From Cytophagales bacterium (GTDB lineage Bacteria > Bacteroidota > Bacteroidia > Cytophagales > Cyclobacteriaceae): a stretch of DNA of 64,000 bases. Positions 4,527 to 16,877 of the stretch are shown here, in pieces. The notes below the pieces were generated by a model. The model did no database searches, was not told the DNA's origin, and saw only the letters and a program-made list of their open reading frames with translations. The stretch spans positions 1 through 64,000 of the forward strand of contig JANYHW010000178.1 of assembly GCA_025358885.1 (NCBI GenBank). The letters run 5' to 3'. A program made the position numbers and the translations under genes. The first letter of the stretch is position 1. Each line of letters begins with the position of its first letter.

Positions 4527-7124
4527 ATGAAGGTCCAGCTGAGGGCAATTTTTGCATTATTAACGTGCCTGGCGGCCTCCCTTAGCTGGCAATGCTCATC
4601 CAATCAAAATACCATTGCGGGCGACGTTTTTCACAATACAACGGCCCATTACAATGGATATTTCTATGCCCGTGAGAAAACACGTGAAGTAGAGAAGACC
4701 ATCCTCAAGAGTCTTGATGATGATCCAAACCAAATTCTTCGGCTCTATCCGAAACTGGATACCAACCTGGCGAAAAGCTATCGAAAGGATACGGAGGAGA
4801 TCATCAAGATGGCTTCCATTTCCATTCAGCGTCACCCCAACAGCAAGTGGCTGGATGACAATTATGTTCTTGTTGGATTGGCCCGGCTCTATGATTGTGA
4901 TTTTCAAAATGCGATTCAAACATTCAAGTTTGTCAATACCAAAAGTCATGACAGTGATTTAAGACATCGCGCGCTCGTAAATCTAATCCGGACATTCACA
5001 GAACAAGGTGAATACGAGAAAGCTGAAGAAGCATTTCAATTCCTGGAAAAAGAAAAACTTAATAAGGTCAATGGGAAAAATCTTTACCTGGAGAAGGCCT
5101 ATTACTACCAGGTGCGCGTCGACTATGATAACATGGTGAGAAATCTAACTCGCGCTGACTCGCTCCTCACTCACACAGACCGCAAAGGGAGAATTTACTT
5201 TATCATTGGACAAGTGTATCAGAAACTGGGATTCGGCTCCGAGGCCTACAATTATTACCGCAAATGTCTCGGCACCAATCCTGAATACGAAATAGATTTT
5301 TACGCGCGGTTAAATATGGCGCAGGTCGCACGCCTTGATAACTCCCGCAATGTGCGCAACATCCGTAAACAGTTTCAGAATTTGTTGTCCGATGCCAAGA
5401 ATCAGGAATTCAAAGACAAGATCTATTTCGAATTGGGTGAATTTGAACGAAAACAAGGAAATGTTTCGGAAGCCATTGAAGAATACAAAAAGTCAGCCCA
5501 TGCCGGTAAGAACAAGAGGATTCAGGGCAGTGCATTTCTGCGGGTGGGGCAGCTCTATTTTGATTCGCTTAAGAGATTCTCTCTGGCAAAGTCTTATTAC
5601 GACAGTGCCGTAAGTTCCCTGCCTAAAGAAGTCGAGAATTACAATGACATCCTCAAGCGACATGAGGTGCTGGGAGCATTCGTTCAGTACACTGAGACAA
5701 TTCAGCTGCAGGACAGCCTTCTCCTTCTAGCATCCCTGGACTCTGCCGCCCTTCGTGCGCGCATTGATTCGTCTTTTGCCTTGAAGGAAAAACCCGGCGA
5801 TCACAAGAAAAAGAAAAAAAAGAAGTCAACGGAAAGCGCAACTAACAATAACCAAAACAGTACCTTCTTCAAATCAGAATCCACGAGTACCACCGATTGG
5901 TATTTCGGGAATGCGCCAGCGGTAGCATCCGGCCAAAGCGAGTTTCAAAGAATCTGGGGCGACATCCCCCTGGAGGATAACTGGCGAAGGTCTACCCGGG
6001 CCGCCAATGCGTTGACAAGCCTTCCTTCAATTGCGACAAACGAAAATCCTGCTGCTGATGAAAAGTCTGCTTCGGCAGGGAAGAAGACGGAGAAGGCCAA
6101 TCCAGCGGAAGAAGCATACACCAAACTTTTGCCACAACTCCCGAGGACCGAACAGCAAAAACAGAAAGCTTTGGGAAAAATCGAAGAGGCCTACTTTAAG
6201 TTGGGCGACCTCTACTATTTTCAATTGACTGAAAAGGAAAACGCAGAATTGTCGTACGAGAAACTCCTGGAACGTTTCCCGGACTCATCCTTCAAACCTG
6301 AAGTCCTCTACAAACTTTACCTCATTCACAAGGAGAGAGGTGACAGTAAAGCAGAGGTTCTTGCCCAACAACTGAAAGATGAGTTTCCTTCTTCGACTTA
6401 TGCGAAGATTCTATTGAACCCTGACTATCTTAAGGAGACAAGCGTGGCACAGGAAAAGCAAAAGATGATTTACAAAGAAGCCTACGCTGACTTCCAGCAT
6501 AACAACCTCCGGGGAGCCCAGGACAAGATTCATCTCGCTCTGGGCCTCGGCGAAACGTCGTTCACCCCACAACTTGATCTGTTGTTGATTCTCATAACCG
6601 GAAAGACAGAGGATGTCACCCGGTATCAATTTGAACTGGGCGAGTATATTAAAAAGTACTCTGATGCTACTACCCACGCCTATGCTGAAACCTTGTTGGC
6701 CAGTTCAAAGACGTTTGTGGAAAAATCAGAACGATCAAAGGGTATCCGATTTAGTGCTTCCTTTGAAGAACCCCATTATTTCGTCATCGTGCATCGCTAT
6801 GAGGATAAGGCCAGTACCATTGTTGCAACGGCACTTGAGAAATTTAATGCCGATTTCTTTCGAAGCAAGAAGTTGGAAACCAGCAATCTTATTTACAATG
6901 ATCAATATGCCTTAACTTTTGTGGGCAACCTCAACAACAAGGCAGAAGCCCTGGATTATTTCAACCGATTCAGAAGTCAACTGGCGAATGGAAAGGTCTT
7001 TTCCACCTTAAATTTCCATAACTTTGTTATAACGAAAGATAATTTCAATATCTTCTACCGCAACAAAGCACTCGATGAGTACCTCAGTTTCTTTGATCGA
7101 CACTATCAAAAAGAAAATCAATGA
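4527..7124 (+). CDS. sprE: Gliding/T9SS tetratricopeptide lipoprotein (SprE/PorW-like)
   Basis: 865 aa, lipobox-like N-terminus (ASLSWQCSS), N(TxxxHYNGYFYAREK) SprE-like start, TPR content. Confidence 0.8.
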   Translation: MKVQLRAIFALLTCLAASLSWQCSSNQNTIAGDVFHNTTAHYNGYFYAREKTREVEKTILKSLDDDPNQILRLYPKLDTNLAKSYRKDTEEIIKMASISIQRHPNSKWLDDNYVLVGLARLYDCDFQNAIQTFKFVNTKSHDSDLRHRALVNLIRTFTEQGEYEKAEEAFQFLEKEKLNKVNGKNLYLEKAYYYQVRVDYDNMVRNLTRADSLLTHTDRKGRIYFIIGQVYQKLGFGSEAYNYYRKCLGTNPEYEIDFYARLNMAQVARLDNSRNVRNIRKQFQNLLSDAKNQEFKDKIYFELGEFERKQGNVSEAIEEYKKSAHAGKNKRIQGSAFLRVGQLYFDSLKRFSLAKSYYDSAVSSLPKEVENYNDILKRHEVLGAFVQYTETIQLQDSLLLLASLDSAALRARIDSSFALKEKPGDHKKKKKKKSTESATNNNQNSTFFKSESTSTTDWYFGNAPAVASGQSEFQRIWGDIPLEDNWRRSTRAANALTSLPSIATNENPAADEKSASAGKKTEKANPAEEAYTKLLPQLPRTEQQKQKALGKIEEAYFKLGDLYYFQLTEKENAELSYEKLLERFPDSSFKPEVLYKLYLIHKERGDSKAEVLAQQLKDEFPSSTYAKILLNPDYLKETSVAQEKQKMIYKEAYADFQHNNLRGAQDKIHLALGLGETSFTPQLDLLLILITGKTEDVTRYQFELGEYIKKYSDATTHAYAETLLASSKTFVEKSERSKGIRFSASFEEPHYFVIVHRYEDKASTIVATALEKFNADFFRSKKLETSNLIYNDQYALTFVGNLNNKAEALDYFNRFRSQLANGKVFSTLNFHNFVITKDNFNIFYRNKALDEYLSFFDRHYQKENQ

Positions 7125-11234: not shown

Positions 11235-12119
11235 TTAATATTCCCATAGATTGTGCTCGCGCTCCATCATCTTCATTTCTTCCCAATCCGTAGCATATAC
11301 ACCTTCCGTATGGGACTTGTAAAGGTTAAATATTGTGTCGTCATCAGGGTTTTCCACCTTTTCAATAATAACATGGAACAACCTCAGAAGAAACGCATCA
11401 GCATAGTTCCTGTTTTCTGCTGTATTATAGCGGTTGAACCAGATGGCTTCCTTCACATGATTTCTGAATACTTTCTCGACGTCCTTATATTTTATCCATC
11501 CGCGTGGCTTTAATAGTCCTTGGGCTTCGTCAAAAGCATAGAGGCCTATACCCAGCATATCATAGTATTGTCTTGACCTCCTTTTATCGAAGATCACGTC
11601 CTCAACGATCTTTAAAATATAAATATCGCTGCCCCTCAAAGTTTCGGCCTTTCCAACGGGCCCTTGCCACTGGTCCTTTGATGTCGATGGATTCTTGCCC
11701 TTGCTGTCATCCGTCGCTTCATAGTTCACACCATTGAAGCTAACTCTGTCACCTTTGTAGAAATCCTTCGCCGGTTCCCAGGCTGGTGGAGTTTCGGCTT
11801 GCTTTGTTGTGATAGCATTATTAAAATCCTCCTTGGACATTTTTCTGTCCAGAGAATCTGTCCAATACACATCCGCAATCTCGCCTGACTTAATGGCCTT
11901 CAGAATAAGGTCGGGCATTTCATTTCCCCTGGCAAAGAAACCCTTATTTTGCTTCTCCCTCAGGTCCATTACCCTCCACACCTTGATCTTGTACAATTGT
12001 TCATACTTCGGTATGGTGAGCAATGAATTAGGATTTATCTGTGCCTCCTCTTCCTGCGCCACGCATACTGTACTTACCGAGACTAAAGCCAACCCAACAA
12101 TTATTTCCTTTATCGTCAT
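11235..12119 (-). CDS. gldN: Gliding motility / T9SS protein GldN (PorN) with a CBM5/12-like insert
   Basis: 294 aa, signal peptide, VWRVMDLREKQN...GEIADVYWTDSLDRKMS...DIYILKIVEDVIFDKRRSRQYYDMLGIGLYA; last of gldKLMN order. Confidence 0.9.
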   Translation of the reverse strand: MTIKEIIVGLALVSVSTVCVAQEEEAQINPNSLLTIPKYEQLYKIKVWRVMDLREKQNKGFFARGNEMPDLILKAIKSGEIADVYWTDSLDRKMSKEDFNNAITTKQAETPPAWEPAKDFYKGDRVSFNGVNYEATDDSKGKNPSTSKDQWQGPVGKAETLRGSDIYILKIVEDVIFDKRRSRQYYDMLGIGLYAFDEAQGLLKPRGWIKYKDVEKVFRNHVKEAIWFNRYNTAENRNYADAFLLRLFHVIIEKVENPDDDTIFNLYKSHTEGVYATDWEEMKMMEREHNLWEY

Positions 12120-12129
12120 ATCCGGTTAT

Positions 12130-13692
12130 TTATTGAATAGGAATGTTCATGGTCCCTCCAACGATGTCTACCTTCTCGTCCTGACCTGTATAAGTTTTGC
12201 GCGTTACTGACTTGATACTTACCACAATTCTGTCGCCAGGTCTCATTTGTGATCTCCAGGGTGCCAGATCCAATATTTCAGAAGTTGCATTAATGGTTGC
12301 CACGGGGGCAGTTCCTCTTGCAAGAATAACTTCCATTGTGCGTATCCGGTAGTTTGCATCTTTTGGAACTTCTGCTTTGAAGTTATCATCCGCATCAGCC
12401 GAGATTCTGAGTCCGGTTAAGCCAGCTTTGACTCCATTCTTAAGATCTATTTCCTTACCGTTATTGTCTCTGGGAACATAACGGGGTTTTGGAATCAACT
12501 TCACATCAAATCCTTGTGTACCAATGACAGAACCCGCGTTGCTTACCGTGATGACCACTTTTCGGTCTACAGGAACAATGACGGTTTTACCGGGTGCATC
12601 TCCCTTCTCTACCGTTGCACCCTTTCCTGTAAAGCTTGGATTGAAACTTGCGCCGAGAACCGGGCAAGCGAATGTTACAAAGTTACCGCAGTTTTGGTAT
12701 AAGCTTGGTGCATTCCCGTTGAAGACCTGAATGGTAGGTGCTATCGCCTGATACTTAATGATGCGATTCAAAGTGTCCTTCTTGGTTCGGATCGTTGCCT
12801 TGTAACTTTGTTCACCAACACCCGTGGCAGTAAACTCAATTTTTGCAACCTTGATGCTGGTTTCGGCATCCGTGGTGACGGCCAGAGGTGCTCCATTCCT
12901 GAACATTTCAGGGGTTTCACCGGAGGATGCTGCTGCCATGAACAACCGTCCTTCATATTTCGCGCCAGAGGCCACGATGGAAGGCCCAATCACCATAGGA
13001 ACGACCACATCAAATTTGCGCTCATCCTGGCCTGCCCTTACGGCAAGTGAGTCGAGTGCCAAAGCTTCATACTCCAATACTTCTGACTGCATCTGGGTAA
13101 TCCCTGTGATGGCAGCCATTGTTGGAGTTCCTTCAAATGAAAACTCAATGAAGGACTTGTCACCATGCTCAACTTCGCCTTTTTCGTTTTTCAACTCCTT
13201 AAAATCCGTTGCGCGCTTGTCTAGCTTGGGGAATTGCATTTTAGAAAGCTCTTGCAGTTTATCATGGAACTTGACGAGCGTCTGTTCATAATTAGGCGCG
13301 AGCTTTGACTTATCATTGAGCATTTTTTCCTCAGAAATATTGGTATTGCCGACTAACTCATCTCCAACCATAGGCTTGCCATTATGCTCCCTGCCAAGAA
13401 TATCCTTGATCGAATCCAATGTGGCAATGGTTTTACTTGAAAGGGCACGCACTTCTTTTGCCTTTTCAATAGCGTCCAGCGCATTGGGGGTTTTACTGGT
13501 CGATCCTTGAATATTCAAAAGTTTCTTTTCGTTCGCGCCACTGTTTTCATTAACAAGATCTATAAGGGTGCTGTTGAGTATGGCAAATTTCTCAAGAACG
13601 GCACTGCTTACATTGAGCGCGAGGAGCGCTGTAAGCACGAGGTACATCATCCCTATCATCTTTTGCCTCGGAGTTTCCTTACCGCCTGACAT
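12130..13692 (-). CDS. gldM: Gliding motility / T9SS protein GldM (PorM)
   Basis: 520 aa; MSGGKETPRQKMIGMMYLVLTALLALNVSSAVLEKF is the diagnostic GldM N-terminus. Confidence 0.97.
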   Translation of the reverse strand: MSGGKETPRQKMIGMMYLVLTALLALNVSSAVLEKFAILNSTLIDLVNENSGANEKKLLNIQGSTSKTPNALDAIEKAKEVRALSSKTIATLDSIKDILGREHNGKPMVGDELVGNTNISEEKMLNDKSKLAPNYEQTLVKFHDKLQELSKMQFPKLDKRATDFKELKNEKGEVEHGDKSFIEFSFEGTPTMAAITGITQMQSEVLEYEALALDSLAVRAGQDERKFDVVVPMVIGPSIVASGAKYEGRLFMAAASSGETPEMFRNGAPLAVTTDAETSIKVAKIEFTATGVGEQSYKATIRTKKDTLNRIIKYQAIAPTIQVFNGNAPSLYQNCGNFVTFACPVLGASFNPSFTGKGATVEKGDAPGKTVIVPVDRKVVITVSNAGSVIGTQGFDVKLIPKPRYVPRDNNGKEIDLKNGVKAGLTGLRISADADDNFKAEVPKDANYRIRTMEVILARGTAPVATINATSEILDLAPWRSQMRPGDRIVVSIKSVTRKTYTGQDEKVDIVGGTMNIPIQ

Positions 13693-13747: not shown

Positions 13748-14578
13748 CTATTTTACTGAAGACCCCTTCATTGCGGTAAGCATACTTCCGTACACCGTAT
13801 TCAATGAAGTGAGGTTGTCAGTCAACTTTCCGAGTTCTGCGGTAAACTTTGAGGTATTGGCACCCACAGAAGAAAGTCCTTGCATGGCTCCACCCAAACT
13901 CTCATAGAATTTGTTCATGTTCTTCACATGGGAATCCGCATCCTTCAATTCCATCTCATAGATGCTATTCAATGCAGCGAGGTTCTTGGTAACCTTCTGA
14001 ACCTGGGCATGATATTCACCCGTGTCTTTGGAGGCATCTGCCATGGCCGAAACGGCCTTCATAGCTGAGCCATATGATTTATTCATTTCAGAAAGTGATG
14101 CAGAAGCTGCCTGCACGTTCTTGGCATATTCATTGGTTGCCACTGCCGCGTTAGACAAATTATTCATTTGCGTAGCGGAGGTTGCCAGGTTAGTCAATCC
14201 CTTGCCCAGATTATCGAGCAGGTTCTGATCCACTTTGGCAGTCTTGAGCATATCATCAATTTTGAGCAGGGGCGATTCACCACCAGCAGGGCGATTGCTG
14301 ATACGGGTAGCCGTTTGATTGGCTGGACCTTCATATTCTTCTGATAACTCAGGATAAACCTTTGACCAATCGGGGTCCTCATGCTTAGGCTCAAAAGCAC
14401 TCAAAAAGAAGATACCAGCCTCCACGGAAAGACCTATCATAAGCATGAGGTTGGCACCGGGTAAGTGAAGAATTTTAAAGAGTGCGCCTATGATTACGAC
14501 TGCTGCACCAATTCCATATATCTTGGGCATGATGGTTTCATAGAGCAATTGCATGAATCCGCCTTTTTTCTTTGCCAT
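13748..14578 (-). CDS. gldL: Gliding motility / T9SS protein GldL (PorL)
   Basis: 276 aa; two N-terminal TM helices (YGIGAAVVIIGALFKILHLPGANLMLMIGLSVEAGIFFLSAFEP). Confidence 0.96.
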   Translation of the reverse strand: MAKKKGGFMQLLYETIMPKIYGIGAAVVIIGALFKILHLPGANLMLMIGLSVEAGIFFLSAFEPKHEDPDWSKVYPELSEEYEGPANQTATRISNRPAGGESPLLKIDDMLKTAKVDQNLLDNLGKGLTNLATSATQMNNLSNAAVATNEYAKNVQAASASLSEMNKSYGSAMKAVSAMADASKDTGEYHAQVQKVTKNLAALNSIYEMELKDADSHVKNMNKFYESLGGAMQGLSSVGANTSKFTAELGKLTDNLTSLNTVYGSMLTAMKGSSVK

Positions 14579-14656: not shown

Positions 14657-15754
14657 TTAAAATTCAGTCCCGGAAGAGCGACCCAAGTGGGTCAACGCAC
14701 AACGGAACCCAATATAGGCACGGGAGGAGTCTTTGAACTCGTATGTGCGGGTACCTGTCTCCAAATAGTACGCGACATCTTTCCAAGAGCCTCCGCGAAC
14801 CACTTTCTTGGGAGGAATCTTGGCATTAAACTTCTTGTTGTCGGGATCTGTCCTGGGGTCGATGTATTGTGGGTTCAAATCCCAAACCGTAGGTACAGAG
14901 GCGGGATTAAAGTCATCAAGACACCATTCAGACACGTTGCCAGAGGTATCAAACAGGCCATAATCATTAGGGAAGTAAGAGCGAATCGGAGAAGTGTAAG
15001 CAAATCCATCATCATAGAAGTTTCCTCTGCCCGGCTTAAAGTTTGCAAGCATACAACCCTTCGAGTTACGGATGTATGGGTTACCCCATGGATATTTTGC
15101 CATATCGCGTCCACCGCGCGCAGAATATTCCCATTCGGCTTCAGAAGGTAACCTGAATTCAGGCATGGGAAACTCCCCTACTGTTTTCCTGAAATCATTG
15201 AGGTAGGCGGTTCTCCACTTGCCAAAGAATACGGCAGCATCCCAATTGATACCGACTACCGGATATTCGTCATAGCCCGGGTGCCAGTAATAATAGTCCT
15301 GGATAGGATCGCCCATATGGTGAGCGAAGTCTTTTACCCACTTAGTGGTGTCCGGATAGTATTTCTGTCTGAATTCCTCTGCACTTACCGCCGGGAATCC
15401 TTCAATCGTGCCATTGTCGACGAGGAAAAAGTTAGTGAACTGACGGTATTCATTGTTCGAGATTTCAGAATCATCCATGAAGAATGGACCAATTGTAATC
15501 TGCTTGTTGAAGTTTATCTGTGTGGAGGCTGGATCCTCATCCGCCTGCCCCATATGAAACGTACCGGCCGGAATAGGCACCATCCCGTAGGGAATAGTCA
15601 TGACCCAGCCTTCGCGATTACCCACGCCGACCAGTTCACCCTGATCGCCACCTTTCTTGCCACCAATACCAAGCAATCCGCAGCCTGCTATTGACAAAGT
15701 GATTGTTGCCAGAGCCAAATAACCTAGACTTCTCGATGTCACCATTACTCTCAT
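14657..15754 (-). CDS. gldK: Gliding motility / T9SS lipoprotein GldK (PorK), FGE-sulfatase-like fold
   Basis: ATG at 15754 gives a lipoprotein signal (SIAGCG); MVPIPAGTFHMGQADED...LPSEAEWEYSARGG...VVRGGSWKD. ORF track start 15796 is probably too early. Confidence 0.95.
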   Translation of the reverse strand: MRVMVTSRSLGYLALATITLSIAGCGLLGIGGKKGGDQGELVGVGNREGWVMTIPYGMVPIPAGTFHMGQADEDPASTQINFNKQITIGPFFMDDSEISNNEYRQFTNFFLVDNGTIEGFPAVSAEEFRQKYYPDTTKWVKDFAHHMGDPIQDYYYWHPGYDEYPVVGINWDAAVFFGKWRTAYLNDFRKTVGEFPMPEFRLPSEAEWEYSARGGRDMAKYPWGNPYIRNSKGCMLANFKPGRGNFYDDGFAYTSPIRSYFPNDYGLFDTSGNVSEWCLDDFNPASVPTVWDLNPQYIDPRTDPDNKKFNAKIPPKKVVRGGSWKDVAYYLETGTRTYEFKDSSRAYIGFRCALTHLGRSSGTEF

Positions 15755-15890
15755 ATGCTTATTGTTAGGTCTTATTCCCCCTCGGTTTTTGTCCAACGAA
15801 TGGACTATAAATTTATTTCATTCCTTTGTTTTGCCAAAAATAGAGTCCCAAATTCAGTAAAATCTTCAAAAAACCCAAAAATGTTTTGAT

Positions 15891-16877
15891 TTAGTAACGG
15901 AATCGAGGGGTTCTGATGATCTTTTTGCTGCTCAGGTTGACGGGCAAACTGTAAGAAACCATCAATTCATGAGATGTGGGCTGTTTTGCCTGCTGGTCTT
16001 TTACAATGTAATCCAGTGAATACCCCACTTTTAAGGATTTATCTTTTAGGAGGCTGTATCCCAGGATCAAAATGGCGGCCTCCGATTGCCTGAATGAAAG
16101 CCCTCCCCACATGGTGTCCTTGAAATAGGCCAAGGCGCCCACGTCAAAAGATGTCTTTGTAAAATCAGTTTTTACAAGGGCAACGAATTGAAGGCGTACG
16201 TCAAAATTAAGGTCATAGAAATAACTCCCTGTAGCGTACATATGCCTCTGTAACTGATTGTTTTGTGTCAGGCCAAAATCAAAACTTGGTTCAGTGAGGT
16301 GATCAAGGCCAACTCCAATATAGTACTTATCCTTTCTATACACGGCGCCTACTCCGAGGTCAGGGCGCATTTGGGATTCCTTGCCAGCTTTTCCTGCAAG
16401 CAAAGGATCGTTCTGATCAGTCGCGCGGTACAAGTCAAAATCAACCTTTTGTGAGTACAGGCCGGCCCGGACACCCAGGCTAAGCTTTGCATCCTTTATG
16501 TTGATGTAGTACGCGTAGGAAAACTGCGCTTCGAAATTGTTCACTGGTCCAAGTTTGTCGTTCACCAGGTAACCTCCAATGCCACCCTTGAGCATTGGGA
16601 CAGGGGTATTTACACTCAGAATCTGTGTGGTGGGTGCTCCTCCATCTCCATAGGTAGGAGAGTATCCCAACCATTGACTTCGGTATATTCCTGTAATCTT
16701 GGTCACTCCTTCTGTTCCGGCAAAAGCAGGATTGTAATAAAACGAATTGAACATATACTGTGAAAATTGCGGGTCCTGTTGCGCCCATCCTTCAATGGAC
16801 AAGAGCATCAGGAGAATGATGAAAATTCTTTTCACAGGAGGGCTCACACGAATTCCAAATATACGCGATTCATTCAT
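15891..16877 (-). CDS. PorP/SprF family type IX secretion system membrane protein
   Basis: 328 aa; QQDPQFSQYMFNSFYYNPAFAGTEG typical of PorP/SprF; adjacent to gldK. Confidence 0.93.
   Translation of the reverse strand: MNESRIFGIRVSPPVKRIFIILLMLLSIEGWAQQDPQFSQYMFNSFYYNPAFAGTEGVTKITGIYRSQWLGYSPTYGDGGAPTTQILSVNTPVPMLKGGIGGYLVNDKLGPVNNFEAQFSYAYYINIKDAKLSLGVRAGLYSQKVDFDLYRATDQNDPLLAGKAGKESQMRPDLGVGAVYRKDKYYIGVGLDHLTEPSFDFGLTQNNQLQRHMYATGSYFYDLNFDVRLQFVALVKTDFTKTSFDVGALAYFKDTMWGGLSFRQSEAAILILGYSLLKDKSLKVGYSLDYIVKDQQAKQPTSHELMVSYSLPVNLSSKKIIRTPRFRY

Follow-up and report, generated by a model that had tools for sequence, protein, structure and literature searches.

In one branch of the Cytophagales, the T9SS ring subunit GldN/PorN carries a CBM5/12-fold module that was gained once, is held under strong purifying selection and lacks the residues with which CBM5 and CBM12 modules bind chitin. 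Altogether, this suggests that a borrowed chitin-binding fold has been reused as a machine part of the secretion/gliding ring. The window in which the module was found, i.e., the whole stretch of DNA that was analysed, comprises 64,000 nucleotides from a member of the Cyclobacteriaceae, and all positions given without a locus name refer to it.

The gldN/porN gene occupies positions 11235–12119 on the minus strand and encodes a protein of 294 amino acids with a signal peptide. The protein matches the Pfam family PF19841 with 172.1 bits (cut-off 23) and the NCBIfam GldN/PorN equivalog TIGR03523 with 106.5 bits (cut-off 85.9). Equivalogs of GldK, GldL and GldM are encoded directly upstream on the same strand. 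These are the ring lipoprotein GldK/PorK, which has an FGE-sulfatase fold and is the ring partner of GldN (14657–15796; TIGR03525, 431.6 bits), the motor protein GldL/PorL (13748–14578; TIGR03513, 253.1 bits) and the motor arm GldM/PorM (12130–13692; TIGR03517, 281.4 bits), of which the D4 domain (PF12080, GldM_4th; residues 401–520, 12133–12492) contacts GldN/PorN. The product of 11235–12119 is GldN/PorN, the last member of a gldK-L-M-N operon.

Other components of the system are encoded in the same genome. The gene that precedes gldK, likewise on the minus strand, encodes a PorP/SprF-family outer-membrane protein (15891–16877; TIGR03519, 276.5 bits). This protein contains zero cysteines, so that a disulfide of the published SprF-GldK type is impossible for it. 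In GldK, Cys248 (SKGCMLANF; codon at 15053–15055) forms a Gly-Cys that may match the published track motif Arg-Gly-Cys-Phe. An intact gene for the lipoprotein PorW/SprE, which is the other partner known for PorN, is present on the plus strand outside the operon (4527–7124; NF052312, 559.5 bits). On another contig of the same genome, a GldJ-like protein is encoded that scores under the GldJ cut-off; its presence makes a gliding track plausible.

Two parts of the protein are recognizable as GldN. The N-terminal segment covers about residues 37–103 (11811–12011; PF19841 starts at residue 37) and consists of a strand (41–52) and helices in the AlphaFold2 model. The C-terminal core covers about residues 161–294 (11238–11639) and is delineated by PF19841, the model and Foldseek as a long antiparallel hairpin (strands 168–178 and 183–197) followed by a C-terminal helix. 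The model was built on an alignment of 61 sequences from the window and related loci, and has a mean pLDDT of 88.4. Its top Foldseek matches are PorN structures, with E-values from 1e-11 to 3e-8 (1.1e-11 for the core against 9ots_D), which indicates a PorN-like core fold. Porphyromonas gingivalis PorN (PDB 9ots, 9mzu, 9myj, 7pvh) indeed shares with the window protein the family, the core fold, the GldK-docking turn and the place in the operon after gldM. The difference lies between the two parts, where PorN has about 25 residues, LDRFGIYYQPSTNKNAELFKVADSD, and the window GldN has the CBM5/12 module.

Residues 112–152 (PAWEPAKDFYKGDRVSFNGVNYEATDDSKGKNPSTSKDQWQ; 11664–11786, minus strand) are a real CBM_5_12 module, as was proposed in the initial annotation of this DNA. 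The span given there, 11658–11786, corresponds to residues 112–154, and the sequence quoted with it ('PPAWEP...') begins one codon before, at 11789. Against CBM_5_12 (PF02839, gathering cut-off 26.2 bits), residues 113–151 score 24.9 bits in the context of the full protein, slightly below the cut-off, and the isolated stretch reaches 29.1 bits. A genome-wide scan gives 28 bits for the module and no other CBM_5_12 match; because it stands alone, nothing supports an origin by recent copying out of a chitinase gene in this genome. Among the 61 aligned GldN sequences, 48 have a match at E ≤ 0.01. The model shows a compact antiparallel beta fold of the 'ski boot' type with pLDDT values of 86–88 across the module and with F120 and W151 at core positions. 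Foldseek matches this part to the chitin-binding domain of Streptomyces chitinase C (2d49) with a TM-score of 0.77 on the target, and to other chitin-binding domains (ChBDs) as well. A chance match or artefact is ruled out by the profile score of the module, by its conservation across about 100 relatives and by the confident model.

The fold is the one of the CBM5/12 ChBDs of S. griseus ChiC (2d49), Bacillus circulans ChiA1 (1ed7) and Cellvibrio CjLPMO10A (CBM5; 6z40), with which the GldN module shares the hydrophobic-core aromatics, a G-x-x-Y turn and the terminal tryptophan. Whereas these domains are appendages of secreted enzymes, the GldN module is internal to a subunit of a periplasmic machine and lacks their exposed chitin-binding Trp/Tyr residues. 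Similar small modules inside large machines are found in phage tails and contractile injection baseplates, i.e., in Agrobacterium phage Milano (8fqc), in the fibre of phage 7-7-1 (9rkv) and in All3316 of Anabaena (7b5h). However, these Foldseek matches to the GldN module are weak and the host proteins are unrelated to GldN. The paper on the Anabaena baseplate describes no role for the CBM-like part.

According to the initial annotation, the canonical GldN/PorN lacks an insert at this place, and this holds: neither PorN nor the GldN of 46 of the 49 GldN-bearing genomes in a sample of the phylum (198 genomes) shows a match, so that only three of the 49 have the module. Within the window's order, matches embedded in GldN are confined to the GTDB family of the window itself. 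Among 198 sampled genomes of this family, 192 have GldN and 46 have the module inside it, a tally of overlapping coordinates that excludes a few modules too diverged for the search profile. The absence of a match in most of the family sample and in nearly all GldN genomes of the phylum sample rules out that the module is a universal part of GldN. Named carriers include Chryseolinea, Fulvivirga, Ohtaekwangia, Chryseosolibacter, Dawidia and Chryseotalea.

A tree of GldN cores (152 sequences) was calculated without the columns of the insert. The 63 module rows (60 clear, three weak) form one clade with an SH-aLRT of 99, and the distribution takes one state change and no loss, by which recurrent gain and loss is ruled out. 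The module was gained once, in the ancestor of one Cytophagales branch, and retained in every sampled descendant. In at least two lineages, two modules occur in tandem. The nearest row outside the clade (L182) has an acidic Gly/Trp linker, and other relatives without the module have at the same site acidic Gly/Trp/Asp-rich linkers (e.g., LTEEEKALGFGDDDGWGD), a loop as short as FWIAANGDSIF or some other short sequence. Overall, the linkers at the insert site in other lineages range from 11 to 119 residues and are of very different kinds.

Some lineages deviate further. On a separate, long branch of the family (L186, L249, L267–L269, L282, L283), the GldN loop is reduced to about 11 residues, FWIAANGDSIF. 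Much of the window's own genus (L015, L014, L018–L030, L129 and others) has a diverged module with an extra tryptophan (NQWWEL) and a branch length of 1.28 in the GldN tree. Some members (L174, L270, L271) barely score as CBM5/12.

Module and core are under equally strong purifying selection. For 29 independent close pairs, the pooled dN/dS comes to 0.037 for the module and 0.044 for the core, figures that are rough because synonymous change is near saturation, and pN is 0.082 and 0.066, respectively. Module identity follows core identity over 4,656 pairs (r = 0.81). Selection of this strength rules out a degenerating relic. It also bears on the view that the module is a mere spacer, i.e., that any folded or disordered filler would work and that the module persists since in-frame removal is rare, while making no specific contact. 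The diversity of the linkers that occupy the site elsewhere is what such a view would lead one to expect, as are the varying length of the module and the strong divergence of the WW-type group. Nevertheless, no loss is seen in any of the 63 tree rows, the pN of the module is close to that of the core, and conservation extends to surface-type positions, namely D/E124, D/N138 and the aromatic residue 121. A mere filler is therefore considered unlikely.

The position of the module within the ring can be approached through PorN, whose numbering was transferred by profile alignment and checked with W47, W154, R223 and A241. The insert replaces about residues 113–142 of mature PorN, which are residues 136–165 of the full-length protein. 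It immediately precedes the strand that runs to FDKRRSR (residues 177–183; 11571–11591), the equivalent in this alignment of the PorN turn F156–D162, which docks into PorK (PMC12421860). Lying just before a strand that ends in the PorK-docking turn, the insert should be at the other end of the long sheet, the one that faces the periplasm. In PorN, loops 4 and 6 are where PorM binds, with one cross-link at A241 (PMC12421860); by profile alignment, this residue corresponds to about T262 of the window GldN. Loop 6 would be the insert site, because loop 7 is given as the PorK contact. On these alignments, the module is probably located at the GldN end that points away from GldK, near the docking site of PorM. 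The PorM-PorN contact itself was weakly predicted in one study and is represented by one cross-linked pair in another, in a single species (PMC12421860; PMC12635249).

Changes in GldM that would accompany the module were sought in the D4 domain. Excess divergence of D4 in the module clade was not found, the ratio of D4 to D2/D3 being 1.21, inside the range of 1.09–1.25 obtained in the other comparisons, and co-evolution of D4 as a whole domain was thus not seen. Of 79 genomes with the module, 73 have Trp or Tyr at GldM residue 479 (12256–12258), vs three of 20 relatives in the same family that lack the module, in which this residue is mostly Leu, Phe or Ile. This enrichment may reflect a contact or shared descent only, and it serves as a lead.

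The known ligand-binding residues of the fold are well described. CBM5 modules require for binding an exposed aromatic pair, Tyr-Trp or Trp-Trp, that hardly varies among them; a third aromatic residue helps, and the core is formed by a different Tyr and Trp, Tyr265/Trp299 (PMC8449059). For the CBM12 of ChiA1, the title of a reference quoted in the same paper indicates that Trp687 matters (PMC8449059). The chitin-binding Trp/Tyr residues of both types are missing in all 104 GldN modules. Column counts place residues 137–139 (Asp-Asp-Ser; 11703–11711, minus strand) in the binding loop, the first two replacing the Trp-Trp pair of CBM5. At 137/138, the equivalent of the AKWW pair, Trp occurs in none of the 104 modules, and residue 138 is Asp or Asn in 98 of them. 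Residue 142, which an alignment to 1ed7 equates with Trp687, before the loop proline, is Lys in the window protein and likewise Trp in none of the 104. A third aromatic residue of the Tyr296 type is absent from the GldN modules. In the binding loop as a whole, Trp is found at any position in 0/104 GldN modules, vs 21/38 CBM5/12 modules that related genomes encode in other proteins. The core aromatics W114, Y/F120, Y133 and W151 are kept across the 104 modules. At residue 121, 83 of them have Tyr or Phe, vs one aromatic residue (a Trp) in 34 controls. A fold that is kept, a known site that is lost and a new conserved aromatic residue together argue against binding of the chitin type.

These data concern an idea that accompanied the initial annotation, namely that the module binds GlcNAc polymers and could dock the T9SS ring to peptidoglycan. 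The fold, its embedding in GldN and its absence from the canonical protein stand; glycan binding and peptidoglycan docking found no support, the exposed pair, the Trp687 equivalent and the Tyr296-type aromatic all being absent. More broadly, the module could be functional in carbohydrate binding and, through contact with peptidoglycan or with glycans in the periplasm or on the outer membrane, keep the GldKN ring close to the wall or guide it there. Its fold is that of chitin-binding modules, its probable site faces the periplasm and is compatible with peptidoglycan contact, and the extra Tyr/Phe at residue 121 could make CH-pi contacts. Glycans would also be nearby, as PorK and PorN are glycosylated in P. 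gingivalis (PMC12635249). However, even with the binding residues present, the affinity of CBM5 for soluble chitohexaose is merely millimolar (PMC8449059), and neither the CBM5 positions nor the CBM12 position is ever Trp in a GldN module. Moreover, in current models the GldKN ring or track travels on the inner side of the outer membrane and is joined covalently to outer-membrane proteins that move as well (PMC12635249), so that wall attachment would act as a brake and a static peptidoglycan tether would work against motion. A glycan-binding role, which could still be exerted through a novel, non-canonical contact, is therefore judged quite unlikely.

On the preferred reading, the fold has been exapted: the module would serve protein contact or spacing at the motor interface and would be no anchor to peptidoglycan or chitin; we give this reading an even chance of being right. 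A CBM5/12-fold module of about 42 residues entered a hypervariable GldN loop, which separates the N-terminal segment from the long beta-hairpin. Strong purifying selection has preserved it since, and the residues by which CBM5 and CBM12 hold chitin are gone from it. From the end of GldN that faces off GldK, it would point toward the GldM motor arm, where it may act as a rigid element for contact or spacing between GldM and GldN and between neighbouring GldN subunits of the ring or gliding track, in place of the disordered-looking acidic linker found in sister lineages. The lack of excess divergence in GldM D4 counts against this reading. Tentatively, the module might be a clade-specific coupling element of the T9SS and gliding machinery, which sets the grip of GldM on the moving ring or track or slides along periplasmic glycan via a non-canonical site. 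That the module instead docks PorW/SprE, the lipoprotein linking the ring to the Sov/SprA translocon, is suggested by the direct binding of the PorW C-terminal domain to PorN (PMC8754138) and by the intact PorW/SprE gene in the window, but is very unlikely, as PorW serves the T9SS elsewhere without any such module.

An exapted contact domain of this kind would bear on the mechanism by which the PorLM/GldLM motor drives the GldKN ring or the gliding track. Single origin, strict retention, loss of the binding site and the probable location make the module a testable case on motor-ring coupling, and a natural clade with a folded domain at the putative motor contact in every GldN offers a handle for testing the coupling model. 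The GldN family is already known and its CBM_5_12 annotation is easily seen with HMMs. A literature search for GldN/PorN with a chitin- or carbohydrate-binding module returned no paper describing the insert; the CBM5/12-bearing architecture is a clade-defining variant of the family for which no description was found. More generally, when CBM_5_12 matches turn up in envelope machines, the binding residues should be checked before chitin or peptidoglycan binding is inferred.

The module is also found in proteins other than GldN itself. Double GldN-like paralogues occur in two genera (L157:3078–4958, minus strand; L158:3290–5161, plus strand; L161:2541–4193, plus strand; also L162 and L164). In L157, L158 and L161, they have two PF19841 stretches, with CBM_5_12 at the same internal place as in the window GldN. 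They are 551–627 amino acids long, vs 294 for the window GldN, and in the loci examined their genes lie apart from the gldKLMN operon; a model of one of them, made without an alignment, is unusable (pLDDT 31). In the same clade, another protein family, with weak matches to HEAT repeats (L156:3584–5341, minus strand; L159; L160:2375–3016, plus strand), has a module closely resembling the GldN type (FPLWDEAMAFYQDDMVVFKGRTYRALQDSKGKRPSTSPQLWQ), and this family may have given the module to GldN or received it from there.
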